The notes under the pieces are model-generated. The model was given only the letters and a program-made list of their open reading frames with translations, ran no database searches and was not told the DNA's origin. A stretch of DNA of 64,000 nucleotides from Salarchaeum sp. JOR-1 (GTDB lineage: Archaea; Halobacteriota; Halobacteria; Halobacteriales; Halobacteriaceae). The stretch is taken from positions 558,001 through 622,000 of the forward strand of contig NZ_CP042241.1 in the NCBI RefSeq assembly GCF_007833275.1. The letters run 5' to 3'. Of the stretch, positions 2,881-27,396 are shown in pieces (within the stretch, counting starts at the first letter, position 1; every line of letters begins with the position of its first letter). Position numbers and translations under genes: made by a program.

Positions 2881-4434
2881 CTACGCCCGCGTGGACGTGA
2901 GCTGGATGTCCGCGTCCTCCAGGAGGTCTTCGACTTCCGCGCGTTTCTCCTGGTGGTCGGCGAGGAACTCCCGCATCAGTTCGGCGGCCTGTTCCTTGCA
3001 GTCCCCGCAGAGGCGGTCGCCGTTCCGGCACTCCTCGTACACGCGCTCGGCGAACTCGTCGTCGTCCGCCGCGAGGAGGTACGCGTACAGTTCGTAGACG
3101 GGGCAGTCGTCGGGCCGGCCGCCCTTCTCGCGCTGTTCCTCGGCGCTCTGCCGGCCGCCCGTCGTCGCCGACTTGACCTTCTCGTAGCCCGTCTCGGGGT
3201 CGTCGAGGAGGCTGATGTGGCTGGCGGGAATCGAGGAGCTCATTTTCCCGCCCGTGAGCCCCGTCATGAACCGGTGGTAGACCGAAGAGGGCGGGACGAA
3301 CCCGTACCCGCCGTGTTCGACCTCTACGTCCTGTGCGAGGTCGCGCGCCTCGGCCTCGGTGAGGTCGAACGCGTCCACGTGCCCCTCGAACACGCGTTTC
3401 TCGCCCTCGACGGCGTCGATGAGCGCCTCGAACGCGTCGTCCGTGGCGTTCCGGTCGAAGAAGCGGGTGCGGGGGCGAAGCGGTTCCATCCCGGCGTTCT
3501 CCAGTTTCTCGATCGTGGCGGAGAGCATCGCTTCGTCCACGCCCTCGGGGAACGCGTCGACGCCTCGGTCGGCGAGCCACTCCGCGGCCTCGACACACCG
3601 CGGCGTCTCGGCGTCGTCCGCGTACTCCTCGCGGGCGTCGTAGGCGCGCGCGACCAGCGGGCGTTCGTCGTCGGTGAGCTCGAAACTCGCGTACGCCTCA
3701 GTGACCTTGAAGTATCGAGCCCGGGACGCGAGGTCGCGCGCGAGTCGAATGTGGGGGTCTTGGTCGGGGCCGACGGGAATCACGGTCGGCTTCGGCTCGT
3801 CCAACTGCGGGTAGAGGATGTCCGCCATCTGCGTGACGACGGACTGCATGTGCGAGACGTCCGTCTCGCCGCCGAACCCGTAGATGGCTTCGAGCTCGCT
3901 GAAGTTCGCTTCCGCGCCGAGTTCGAACGCCAAGTCCTGGAGTTCGCGGTTCTCCGACTGCCGGTACAGTGTCCCTTCTTCGGGGTCGAATCCGAGCGCG
4001 AGCAGGCTCAGGAGGTAGTTCCGCGAGTGTTCGTCTATCTCCTCCCAGGTGAGGCCGCGCGCGGCGTTCGCTTCCAGGTCGGCGATGAGCGCGTACGCGT
4101 CCCCGCCCTGCTCTTGATGCCAGATTATCTCGTCGAACACGAGCTTGTGCCCGATGTGGGGGTCGCCGGTCGGCATGAACCCGGAGAGCGCCGCGAACGG
4201 TTCGTCCGCGCGCATCGCGTCGAGAACGCGGCGGTAATCCCGGTGGCCGAAGATGATGGCGCGCCGCATCAGGTAGTGGGGGTTCGGCACCTCGTCGAGG
4301 AGGTCGTCGAACGCCTCGATGCCGAACTCGCCGAACAGTTTCTCGTAGTCGGAGACGGTCGACGACCCCCAGGGGTCGAGGGTGACGTCGTCCGCGCCGG
4401 CCGTGCCGTCGTCGCGTGGTGTGTCGTCAGTCAT
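2881..4434 (-). CDS. trpS1: Tryptophanyl-tRNA synthetase, Fe-S-motif form (TrpS1)
   Basis: This class I aminoacyl-tRNA synthetase (517 aa) charges tRNA-Trp. HIGH is at residues 93-96 (DPHIGHK) and KMSSS at 397-401. Near the C-terminus are Cys444, Cys469, Cys476 and Cys479, spaced C-x24-C-x6-C-x2-C. This resembles the C-x22-C-x6-C-x2-C iron-sulfur motif known from Thermotoga TrpRS, so a 4Fe-4S cluster is likely (inference). I chose the ATG at 4434 because it overlaps the endA stop by 4 nt and gives the family-length protein. The longer in-frame extension runs inside endA. It is co-transcribed with endA and the zinc-ribbon gene upstream. A second, cysteine-free TrpRS lies at 25239-26360. Confidence 0.95.
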   Translation of the reverse strand: MTDDTPRDDGTAGADDVTLDPWGSSTVSDYEKLFGEFGIEAFDDLLDEVPNPHYLMRRAIIFGHRDYRRVLDAMRADEPFAALSGFMPTGDPHIGHKLVFDEIIWHQEQGGDAYALIADLEANAARGLTWEEIDEHSRNYLLSLLALGFDPEEGTLYRQSENRELQDLAFELGAEANFSELEAIYGFGGETDVSHMQSVVTQMADILYPQLDEPKPTVIPVGPDQDPHIRLARDLASRARYFKVTEAYASFELTDDERPLVARAYDAREEYADDAETPRCVEAAEWLADRGVDAFPEGVDEAMLSATIEKLENAGMEPLRPRTRFFDRNATDDAFEALIDAVEGEKRVFEGHVDAFDLTEAEARDLAQDVEVEHGGYGFVPPSSVYHRFMTGLTGGKMSSSIPASHISLLDDPETGYEKVKSATTGGRQSAEEQREKGGRPDDCPVYELYAYLLAADDDEFAERVYEECRNGDRLCGDCKEQAAELMREFLADHQEKRAEVEDLLEDADIQLTSTRA

Positions 4435-25238: not shown

Positions 25239-26360
25239 CTACAGTCCAACCGCCGACCGCGCCCGCTCGCGTTCGCCCTCGGCAAGCCGGTAGGCCGCGA
25301 GCTCGTCGTCGAGCGCCCCGAGGTTCGCCTTCCGGGACTGGTGCTCGCGGAGGAACTCCGCTATCCGGTCGGCCGCGAGTTCCTTCAGGTCGCCCGAGAG
25401 CAACTCGCCCCCGCGGTACGCGGCCGCGATGTCGCGGAGGCGGTCGTCGTCCGGTTCGAAAAAGGCCTGCAGGTACTGGAAGGGGACGTCCTCCTCGGGA
25501 ATCCCGCCCTTCTCGCGGTGCTCGGAGAGCGTCGCGCGACCGCCCGTGTATGCGTGCGACGAGATCTTCTCGCGAACGGTGTCGGGGTCGTCGTCGAGGT
25601 GGATGGCGACGCCCTCGCTCGAACTCATCTTCCCCGGGCCGTCGAGACTCGGGAGGAACTTCCCGAGGAGCGCGGTCGGTTTCGACACGTCGTACTTCGC
25701 CTTTGCGGCGACGTCCCGGGAGACGCGGACGTGCGGGTCCTGGTCGACGGCGATGGGCACCAGGGTGGCGTGCTCGCCCTCGACGAGCTGGGGCAGCAGG
25801 AGGTGTGCGGTCTGGACGGCGGGGTAGAAGGCGAGGCCGACGTTCGGCGGGTCGCCGTACGTCGCCGTCATCTGGTTGTGCGTGATGTCGCCCGCGAACG
25901 CCGACGCGACCGGATACACCACGTCCGCGTCGTCCGTGTCCACGACGATGCGGGTGTTCTCGGGGTCGAACCCCACCGCGAGAACGTCCCGGAGGTTGTC
26001 GCGGAGGTACTCTCGGGTCTCGGGGTACGTCTGGGCTTTCGCGTAGTACTTCTCGTCGTCGGAGAGCGGGACGTACACGGTCGCGTCGAACGCGTCCTGG
26101 AGGTGTTTCGCGAAGTAGAAGGGGAGGACGTGCCCGAGGTGCATCGGCCCGCTCGGCCCGCGGCCCGTGACGACCGATCGCCGGTCGGCGTCGAGGAAGC
26201 GCGCGACGTCCCGGCCCGCGTAGAACACGTCGCGGCGCGCGAGCGGATGGCCGAGGCGGTCCTGGTGGGCGTCCCGGAGGCGGTCTGCGCCGAAGTCGTC
26301 GAGGAGTCGTTCGTAGTCGATGTCGCCCGAAACGTGGTAGGGTGTGACTGTCTGTGTCAT
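25239..26360 (-). CDS. trpS2: Tryptophanyl-tRNA synthetase, cysteine-free paralogue (TrpS2)
   Basis: This second TrpRS (373 aa) is shorter than TrpS1. HLGH is at residues 74-77 and KMSSS at 244-248 (GPGKMSSSEG). The C-terminal region aligns with TrpS1 (YRGGELLSGDLKE against CRNGDRLCGDCKE), but every cysteine is replaced. The whole protein has no Cys, so it cannot carry the Fe-S cluster predicted for TrpS1. I start it at the ATG at 26360. The open extension to 26486 overlaps the leader ORF in another frame and lacks family similarity. It is preceded by a Trp-codon leader peptide with alternative hairpins, so expression probably responds to charged tRNA-Trp. Confidence 0.93.
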   Translation of the reverse strand: MTQTVTPYHVSGDIDYERLLDDFGADRLRDAHQDRLGHPLARRDVFYAGRDVARFLDADRRSVVTGRGPSGPMHLGHVLPFYFAKHLQDAFDATVYVPLSDDEKYYAKAQTYPETREYLRDNLRDVLAVGFDPENTRIVVDTDDADVVYPVASAFAGDITHNQMTATYGDPPNVGLAFYPAVQTAHLLLPQLVEGEHATLVPIAVDQDPHVRVSRDVAAKAKYDVSKPTALLGKFLPSLDGPGKMSSSEGVAIHLDDDPDTVREKISSHAYTGGRATLSEHREKGGIPEEDVPFQYLQAFFEPDDDRLRDIAAAYRGGELLSGDLKELAADRIAEFLREHQSRKANLGALDDELAAYRLAEGERERARSAVGL

Positions 26361-26377
26361 GTAGGGGTGGCTGCGTG

Positions 26378-26509
26378 GCTCTCTGGTGAGTAGTGCGCGA
26401 GGAGAGCGAGGGAGCGCCACCCCGAGTCGGGGAGCGCAGTTAGGCCGCGACCCCGATGCGGGCGACACTGTCCGCTCTCGAACCACGCCAGCGCCAGTCG
26501 AGAGCGGAC
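26378..26509 (-). promoter_or_regulatory. Attenuator-like alternative hairpins in the trpS2 leader
   Basis: Four segments are built on one motif. Segment 1 is 26499-26509 and segment 2 is 26470-26480; they form a perfect 11-bp stem with an 18-base loop containing both Trp codons. Segment 3 is 26402-26408 (CGCTCTC on the minus strand) and can pair with 7 bases of segment 2. Segment 4 is 26378-26383 (GAGAGC) and can pair with 6 bases of segment 3, ending 17 bases before the trpS2 ATG. So 1:2 with 3:4 excludes 2:3, as in classical attenuators. A second set of competing arms, TCGGGG/CCCCGA/TCGGGG, lies at 26420-26456. Pairings were read by eye and energies were not computed. Confidence 0.65.
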
Positions 26510-26514
26510 TGCAT
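26440..26514 (-). CDS. Trp-codon leader peptide of trpS2
   Basis: This 24-codon ORF runs from ATG (26514) to TAA (26440) and begins MQSALDWRWRGSRADS. Trp codons are at positions 7 and 9 (TGG CGC TGG), in the loop of the 11-bp hairpin 26470-26509. A six-T TATA-like run on the minus strand lies 24-29 bases before its ATG, so its mRNA is probably leaderless. trpS2 starts 79 bases after its stop. Two Trp residues in 24 is rare by chance, and the match to the downstream enzyme suggests a ribosome-stalling sensor. Translation has not been shown. Confidence 0.78.
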   Translation of the reverse strand: MQSALDWRWRGSRADSVARIGVAA

Positions 26515-26536
26515 ACCCCGGAATCAGCGCGACGCC

Positions 26537-26544
26537 GAAAAAAG
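26537..26544 (-). promoter_or_regulatory. Promoter (TATA-like) of trp leader-trpS2 transcript
   Basis: The minus strand reads CTTTTTTC, with the T-run 24-29 bases upstream of the leader-peptide ATG at 26514. It begins right after the rio1 stop (26554). No comparable box is seen directly before the trpS2 ATG, so trpS2 probably depends on this promoter. Confidence 0.6.
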
Positions 26545-26553
26545 CCTACCGCT

Positions 26554-27396
26554 CTACTCGCGGGTGACGAACGCGTACAGGTCGTCCACGTCGGCGTCCG
26601 CGCCCGCCCGCGAGAAGAAGTTCGCGACGTTCCGGCAGTCCCGCCGCAGGAACTCGTCCGCGTTCGGGTGGTAGGTGGTGACCGCCTGCCCCACGTCGAT
26701 AACCGTCAACTCGCCCTCGTGGACGACGATGTTGTACTCGGAGAGGTCGCCGTGCACGAGTTTCGCGTCGTACAACCGCCGCATGTACTCGCGGACGACC
26801 TCGTACGCCGTCTCCGGGTTCTCCAGCGTCACGTCGGTGAGCGTCGGCGCGGCCTCGTCCTCGCCGCCGATGTACTCCATCGCGAGCACGTTCCGCTGGA
26901 CGGCAATGGGTTCCGGAACCTTCACGCCCGCCTCCGCCGCGCGCTGGAGGTTCGCGAACTCCTTGCGCGTCCACGCCAGCACGACCGACTTCTTGTCCCC
27001 CCGAATCCCCTCGAAGCGCGGGTCGCCCTCCAGGTAGTCCCGCATCTGCCGGAAGTCCGAGGCGTTCACGCGGTACACTTTCAGTGCGACCGTCCCACCG
27101 TCCGGCGCTTCCGCCGCGTACACGTTCGCCTCCTTCCCCGTCGAGATCGGGCCGCCGAGCGCCGCGACGTACCCGTCCTGGACGAGCTTGTAGATAGCCG
27201 CGTACGTCGCGTCGTCGAACGCGCCGGCCTCGACCTTGAACTGGTCGGCGTCCTTCACGCGCTTGCGGAACTCCGCGAACTCGCGGTCACGCTTGCGCGC
27301 GATGCGGTCTGCCTCCGTGTCGGAAACGTCTATCTCCTCGAACTCGTCCCCCGGTGCCCCCTCCGGTTCCTCGACGAAGTCGTCGTCCTCGGTCAC
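26554..27396 (-). CDS. rio1: Rio1-type atypical protein kinase/ATPase
   Basis: This 280-aa RIO-family kinase acts in late 30S ribosomal subunit maturation. The nucleotide loop is GPISTGKEANVY at residues 82-93 and the invariant Lys is K106 in VALKVYRV. The catalytic loop LVHGDLSEYNIV contains D217, and the metal-binding loop is IDVGQA at 233-238. The N-terminus is acidic and unstructured. The STGKEA P-loop signature marks Rio1 rather than Rio2. It lies in a translation neighbourhood with KH/Pno1-like protein, aIF1A and two tRNA synthetases. Confidence 0.96.
   Translation of the reverse strand: MTEDDDFVEEPEGAPGDEFEEIDVSDTEADRIARKRDREFAEFRKRVKDADQFKVEAGAFDDATYAAIYKLVQDGYVAALGGPISTGKEANVYAAEAPDGGTVALKVYRVNASDFRQMRDYLEGDPRFEGIRGDKKSVVLAWTRKEFANLQRAAEAGVKVPEPIAVQRNVLAMEYIGGEDEAAPTLTDVTLENPETAYEVVREYMRRLYDAKLVHGDLSEYNIVVHEGELTVIDVGQAVTTYHPNADEFLRRDCRNVANFFSRAGADADVDDLYAFVTRE

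Follow-up and report, generated by a model that had tools for sequence, protein, structure and literature searches.

Leader-peptide attenuation is generally regarded as a bacterial mechanism. The known precedent on a gene for tryptophanyl-tRNA synthetase (TrpRS) is also bacterial: attenuators have been predicted upstream of Streptomyces trpS genes, including trpS2 of S. avermitilis, and these are of the classical kind, with GC-rich terminators plus poly-U (PMC1262725). In S. coelicolor an attenuator on an indolmycin-resistant auxiliary TrpRS is reported to have been studied experimentally. In the erm/cat-type translational attenuators of inducible resistance genes, a ribosome stalled on the leader frees the downstream start region. 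We were not able to find an archaeal leader-peptide attenuator in the open-access literature that we searched, which agrees with an earlier note on this locus that knew of no described haloarchaeal example. Note that subscription papers were mostly outside this search and that priority is uncertain.

Here we describe a leader in front of trpS2 in the window, that is, in the whole stretch of 64,000 nucleotides of Salarchaeum sp. JOR-1 that was analysed. We consider it very probable that this leader is a ribosome-mediated attenuator which senses charged tRNA-Trp and controls a TrpRS gene. The case is a computational one, and there are no expression, ribosome-profiling or probing data. The product of trpS2 scores above the cut-off for the NCBIfam tryptophan--tRNA ligase NF008927, and by sequence comparison its closest PDB chain is 3jxe (E=6e-70). 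The leader lies on the minus strand, in a stretch of 190 intergenic nucleotides upstream of the trpS2 ATG (at 26360) and beyond a gene ending at 26554, which we take to be a RIO1-type kinase gene (an ORF identified by reading). The features are collected in Table 1.

Table 1. Features of the trpS2 leader in the window, and loci where the leader precedes trpS1.
Feature	Position	Strand	Basis
trpS2, tryptophanyl-tRNA synthetase, 373 aa, putative controlled gene	25239..26360	-	NCBIfam NF008927, PDB 3jxe
Leader ORF, putatively leaderless, 24 codons, MQSALDWRWRGSRADSVARIGVAA then stop	26440..26514	-	W-x-W ORF in relatives, promoter spacing
Putative sensor codons TGG CGC TGG (Trp-Arg-Trp), loop of 1:2 hairpin	26488..26496	-	both TGG almost invariant in alignment
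Segment 1, GUCCGCUCUCGA	26498..26509	-	12 bp with segment 2; covariation; partner test
Segment 2 and 3' flank, UCGAGAGCGGACAGUGUCGCCC	26460..26481	-	1:2 uses 26470-26481; 2:3 uses 26473-26479 and 26460-26469
Intervening hairpin, 6+5 bp, leader stop codon in loop	26427..26456	-	predicted in both window states
Segment 3, with conserved GCUCMCU element at 26409-26415	26402..26423	-	2:3 pairing, partner test
Segment 4, ending 4 nt before trpS2 ATG	26364..26383	-	3:4 pairing, partner test
TATA-like box TTTTTT of leader promoter, -29 to -24 from leader ATG	26538..26543	-	sequence; A/T profile of 65 loci
Leaders before trpS1 in genomes without trpS2	L144-L155, L157-L165, L167, L131, L135		

The leader ORF runs from an ATG at 26514 to a TAA at 26440 (stop codon 26440-26442). 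The earlier note had described this ORF with TGG CGC TGG in a hairpin loop, behind a promoter with leaderless spacing, and both claims held. Its perfect 11-bp hairpin (26470-26480 with 26499-26509) was confirmed as well, the real length being 12 bp (26498-26509 with 26470-26481). The right arm was said to pair with 26402-26408, and indeed this segment (CGCUCUC) is perfectly complementary to 26473-26479, which forms the inner helix of 2:3. The further pairing proposed for 26402-26408, with 26378-26383 at 17 nt before the trpS2 ATG, holds for 26402-26407 and belongs to 3:4, as do the pairs of 26414-26415 with 26373-26374. Two larger helices had been missed. One of them is the outer helix of 2:3 (26460-26469 with 26413-26422), which lengthens this pairing to about 18 bp; the other is the main 3:4 stem (26416-26423 with 26364-26371), which stops 4 nt short of the trpS2 ATG. 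The hairpin between segments 2 and 3 has a counterpart at or just after the leader stop codon in many relatives.

In the mechanism that we propose, a leaderless transcript would begin at the AUG of the leader. When tryptophan is replete, the ribosome would clear the Trp codons and segment 1 would pair with segment 2; segment 3, being free, would pair with segment 4, closing a stem beside the trpS start codon, and expression would be low. When charged tRNA-Trp is scarce, the ribosome would wait on UGG-CGC-UGG within the hairpin and hold segment 1, and segment 2 would pair with segment 3 around a conserved internal loop. Once 2:3 has formed, 3:4 would be impossible and trpS would be expressed. 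The stalling itself, the direction of the response and an output in translation initiation rather than in transcription are inferred from sequence alone. The anatomy lends good support to ribosome stalling as the means of sensing; about the output we are less certain.

A search for loci related to trpS2 gave 71 loci, 70 of them haloarchaeal. An upstream W-x-W ORF (W-R-W, W-H-W or W-Q-W) is present at 64 of these 70, with the window additional. The other six are L018, where there is only about 100 nt of sequence upstream of trpS2, the plasmid-borne L028 and L030, which have a single-Trp variant of the leader ending in RRWR, and L034, L060 and L062, where we were not able to find a W-x-W ORF upstream of trpS2. 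Both TGG codons are nearly invariant in the leader alignment. Since the same architecture recurs across the class, the arrangement in the window is not due to chance.

The spacing of these elements can be quantified. Between segment 1 and the first Trp codon lie 10 to 25 nt, a distance that varies only by threes (1 mod 3) in all 45 of 45 cases, and the distance from Trp to segment 2 is 23-29 nt, with the frame after Trp broken in five. The nucleotides GAGYGGACAGU of segment 2 are maintained despite a shifted frame (in Halorussus, where the peptide ends in GERTVS) or an earlier end of the ORF (in L047, where it ends in GRWRWH). This is the pattern expected if a ribosome must read from the AUG to Trp and the sequence beyond is needed as RNA: the frame is strict up to Trp and is lost thereafter while the nucleotides persist, which argues for selection on translation as far as Trp and on RNA from there.

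Several variants of the leader were seen. L136, L137 and L141 form, together with the plasmid loci L028 and L030, a trpS2 subclass with a single-Trp leader, RRWR-stop, in which the stop codon follows the sensor codon directly. Segment 1 consists of the Trp codons in Halomarina and L061. UGG codons lie inside segment 1 in L058, L061, L065 and L066, where a stalled ribosome would cover the pairing arm directly.

Next, we asked whether the stems are supported by evolution. In the alignment, 96.2% of the cells of the 1:2 stem are paired, as compared with 30-50% in slid controls; five pairs have changed on both sides, giving 44 double-change cells; 0 of 500 shuffles did as well. We also used a partner test, in which the segment of each species is scored with its own partner and with the partners of other species, both for 65 loci and for a subset of 39 sequences, one per genus or lineage. 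All three pairings stand out among the 65 loci (z=-9.4 for 1:2, -8.9 for 2:3 and -5.2 for 3:4; negative controls +0.6 for 2:4 and -2.0 for 1:3) and again in the 39-lineage subset (-6.5, -6.2 and -4.2, respectively; controls +2.1 for 2:4 and +1.7 for 1:3). The tests are not fully corrected for phylogeny; the control pairings 2:4 and 1:3 speak against composition or relatedness as the source of the signal.

The signal for 2:3 depends on where one looks. With a narrow region of comparison the partner test was not significant (p about 0.17), and widening it on both sides exposed the outer helix and a strong signal. This outer helix has a partner-test score of -6.7 and clear GC, AU and CG swaps, and is divided from the inner helix by a conserved internal loop, GACAGU/GCUCMCU. 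The inner helix (7 bp in a constant register) shows modest covariation when taken alone (z=-2.6; Fisher p about 0.003, three contrasts). In summary, 1:2 and 2:3 covary and 3:4 has support, all of which is shown computationally. The earlier note would have been refuted by relatives that lack the ORF or its Trp codons, or by stems without covariation; we found the opposite on both points.

A switch between the folds is predicted with standard RNA parameters at 37 C, which do not describe molar KCl. To model stalling, we placed the first Trp codon in the ribosomal A site and took the first 31 nt to be hidden under the ribosome. The window transcript, when folded freely, has 1:2 at 0.97, 3:4 at 0.95 and 2:3 at 0.03. 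With the ribosome on the Trp codons 2:3 rises to 0.89 and 3:4 falls to 0.03, and with the ribosome at the stop codon 1:2 and 3:4 return (0.97 each). The constrained folding thus supports, as a prediction, the earlier claim that stalling masks the first arm and favours 2:3. Across the 65 loci the change from free to stalled is from 0.38 to 0.64 for 2:3 and from 0.46 to 0.23 for 3:4. At 29 of the 65 loci the free RNA adopts the 2:3 form to a substantial degree even without a ribosome, and for about half of the loci no 3:4 is predicted; the model thus predicts a clean two-state picture in the window and not at every locus. The release of the start region, also claimed earlier, is seen in the predicted folds as a small change: on stalling the AUG region becomes more open in 32 of 64 loci and less open in 10 (mean 0.47 to 0.55, p=0.0003). 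A conserved pyrimidine-rich stretch after GCUCMCU becomes less accessible in the stalled fold in 26 of 64 loci and more accessible in 8 (p=0.001).

Relative to the leader start codon, the A/T content of the 65 loci peaks at -30..-25 (0.65-0.89 against a background of 0.39), with further peaks at -36..-34, which is BRE-like (GAAA), and at -11. From the positions of these peaks we infer a standard archaeal promoter, placed for transcription to start on the leader AUG or beside it, and hence a leaderless transcript. We could not see any promoter-like A/T peak at -30..-25 of the trpS2 ATG, where the profile of 64 loci is flat, so that we reject a promoter of its own for trpS2, nor any SD-like 5-mer within 20 nt before this ATG in any of 64 loci. 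Since there is neither a second promoter peak nor an SD-like 5-mer, trpS2 probably depends on the leader promoter for its expression and starts translation without a Shine-Dalgarno sequence, which is again an inference.

As to the output, we infer that control of trpS translation initiation is likely, and more so than intrinsic termination, because 3:4 adjoins the trpS2 AUG, no U-run follows it and the start region is slightly more open when the ribosome is stalled. No U-run was found after 3:4 in the window, and between the leader stop codon and the trpS2 ATG the longest T-run is 1-3 in 53 of 65 leaders and never over 5. For want of a U-run we reject intrinsic termination after 3:4.

To see how widely the leader is distributed, we used a covariance model of it (R1) for genome searches. 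R1 recovers the window leader (E=2e-15) plus one other strong match in the same genome, and matches 162 of 392 genomes of the class. A trpS2 gene (E<=1e-60) is present in 136 of the 392 genomes, and 127 of these 136 have the leader as well. Among 150 listed matches, 123 share the strand of a trpS2 gene and are 104-324 nt upstream of it; the other 27 comprise 24 in front of trpS1, which is a distant TrpRS paralogue, and single matches before a trpS2-like fragment, before a GNAT gene and at a contig end. All 24 trpS1-preceding leaders are in genomes without trpS2 at E<=1e-60, and they retain the peptide (e.g. MSASDGWRWRWQFPEADSLASPAAR) as well as 1:2 and 2:3. The leader is found before trpS1 where trpS2 is absent, and therefore tracks TrpRS function rather than one gene; a Trp-related function is strongly supported by this co-occurrence with the enzyme activity.

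The second TrpRS gene of the window (trpS1, 2881-4434, minus strand) has no leader match in this genome. A search of 393 sampled genomes of the phylum gave R1 matches only in the order to which the window belongs. A search of a plasmid collection returned nothing. We were also not able to find any Rfam family, including the bacterial Trp leader, in positions 26200-26700 with cmscan, which returned only two sub-threshold chance matches to microRNAs. As nothing in Rfam came near the threshold, we reject a T-box and any other RNA family already known.

It speaks against the proposed mechanism that not every leader has two Trp codons: there are leaders with a single one (e.g. L160) and leaders without any (the GNAT leaders). 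A Trp-less leader at G000:C2:2009777-2009830 (minus strand, L077), with 1:2 and 2:3 intact, precedes a GNAT acetyltransferase gene, and the same genus has another (L142); the peptides of such leaders in the genus of the window are MSALSTFAVTSRERTVRSAA and MSAPNASAGRSRERTVRSAA. Possibly these are a second attenuator for a different, unknown signal, which is inferred from sequence alone. One-Trp leader scaffolds precede another GNAT acetyltransferase gene (L166, genome G159) and an MsbA-like ABC exporter (L143, genome G274).

Could the same observations be explained otherwise? The most serious rival keeps the sensor and changes the output: 1:2 together with 3:4 would permit early termination, by an intrinsic pyrimidine-rich signal or by FttA/aCPSF1 acting on untranslated RNA, and 2:3 would block it. 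In favour of this, the stalled fold hides more of the pyrimidine-rich stretch that follows GCUCMCU, and the title of PMC8576121 argues that transcription is coupled to translation in haloarchaea; the short T-runs before the trpS2 ATG speak against it. We regard a transcriptional output as possible, although less probable than a translational one. A T-box-like riboswitch, on the other hand, would need no translation, as the loop would show UGG to the anticodon of tRNA-Trp. It would fit the UGG in a hairpin loop, the TrpRS target and the conserved internal loop in 2:3, but not the strict in-frame spacing from the start-codon side to Trp, the leaderless promoter or the two in-frame Trp codons around a variable codon (R, H or Q); moreover, the internal loop of 2:3 lacks a conserved UGGN, and there is no T-box match with cmscan at E<=1. 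We consider it very unlikely.

The inverted repeat might also be a DNA operator for a transcription regulator, since it is a long, near-perfect palindrome immediately after the inferred start site. However, the arm sequences differ while their complementarity persists, the spacer is variable, the right arm has a second complementary region some 50-70 nt downstream, and the Trp codons are conserved in frame, all of which makes this reading very improbable too. Finally, the ORF could encode a conserved functional microprotein, with the RNA folds as by-products, and the motif SA..WRW...ADS, seen repeatedly among the leader peptides, could be taken in its favour. Outside W-x-W, however, the peptide follows the RNA: the nucleotides of segment 2 are kept although Halorussus reads them in another frame and the L047 ORF stops short of them. 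We consider this explanation extremely improbable.

If the attenuator is real, archaeal ribosomes serve as amino-acid sensors, on a leaderless mRNA and without a terminator or Shine-Dalgarno sequence; translation of the leader is tightly coupled to RNA folding, and the system gives access to the way in which haloarchaea initiate translation of leadered genes without an SD sequence. Halobacterium salinarum DSM 3754 (L007), which can be cultured, has the leader too, and it is directly testable there. A bolder reading, which we doubt slightly more than we believe it, is that haloarchaea own a modular family of leaderless ribosome-stalling attenuators, with one scaffold (a stem with the conserved GGACAGU, the intervening hairpin and the GCUCMCU element) and swapped sensor codons, moved between genes and acting on non-SD initiation without a terminator. 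Its targets would be the two paralogous TrpRS genes, sensing Trp, and the GNAT acetyltransferases and the ABC exporter, which would respond to another signal, possibly translation inhibitors.

How, then, does the trpS2 attenuator proposed here compare with known systems? With the T-box riboswitches on aminoacyl-tRNA synthetase genes it has in common that tRNA charging is sensed and a synthetase controlled through alternative folds, but T-boxes bind the tRNA directly and have no leader ORF, and their conserved features are missing here. The Streptomyces trpS attenuators likewise place a Trp-codon leader on one of a cell's two TrpRS genes, and differ in their GC-rich terminators and poly-U (PMC1262725). 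As in the erm/cat type, the start region would be freed by a stalled leader ribosome, and GNAT and ABC-exporter genes have related leaders in haloarchaea; erm/cat leaders stall on a drug or nascent peptide, whereas the haloarchaeal main class uses cognate Trp codons. From the E. coli trpL-type attenuator the haloarchaeal leader differs in the leaderless AUG that coincides with or adjoins the start site, the Trp codons within the 1:2 loop, the extra hairpin between 2 and 3, the lack of a U-run after 3:4 and of a Shine-Dalgarno sequence, the archaeal host and the aminoacyl-tRNA synthetase target. The statement of the earlier note that the locus mirrors bacterial trp attenuation thus held in part: we do not class the whole as E. 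coli trp type, because a terminator was looked for and not found (there is no 3:4 terminator with a U-run), but the sensing half works like that of the bacterial trp attenuator. Common to both are tandem Trp codons in a leader ORF, 1:2, 2:3 and 3:4 pairings that exclude one another (with evolutionary support here), and a position of the Trp codons at which a stalled ribosome would mask segment 1 and free segment 2; the order of spacing matches that of E. coli trpL, with about 15-20 nt here between the Trp codons and the start of segment 2.
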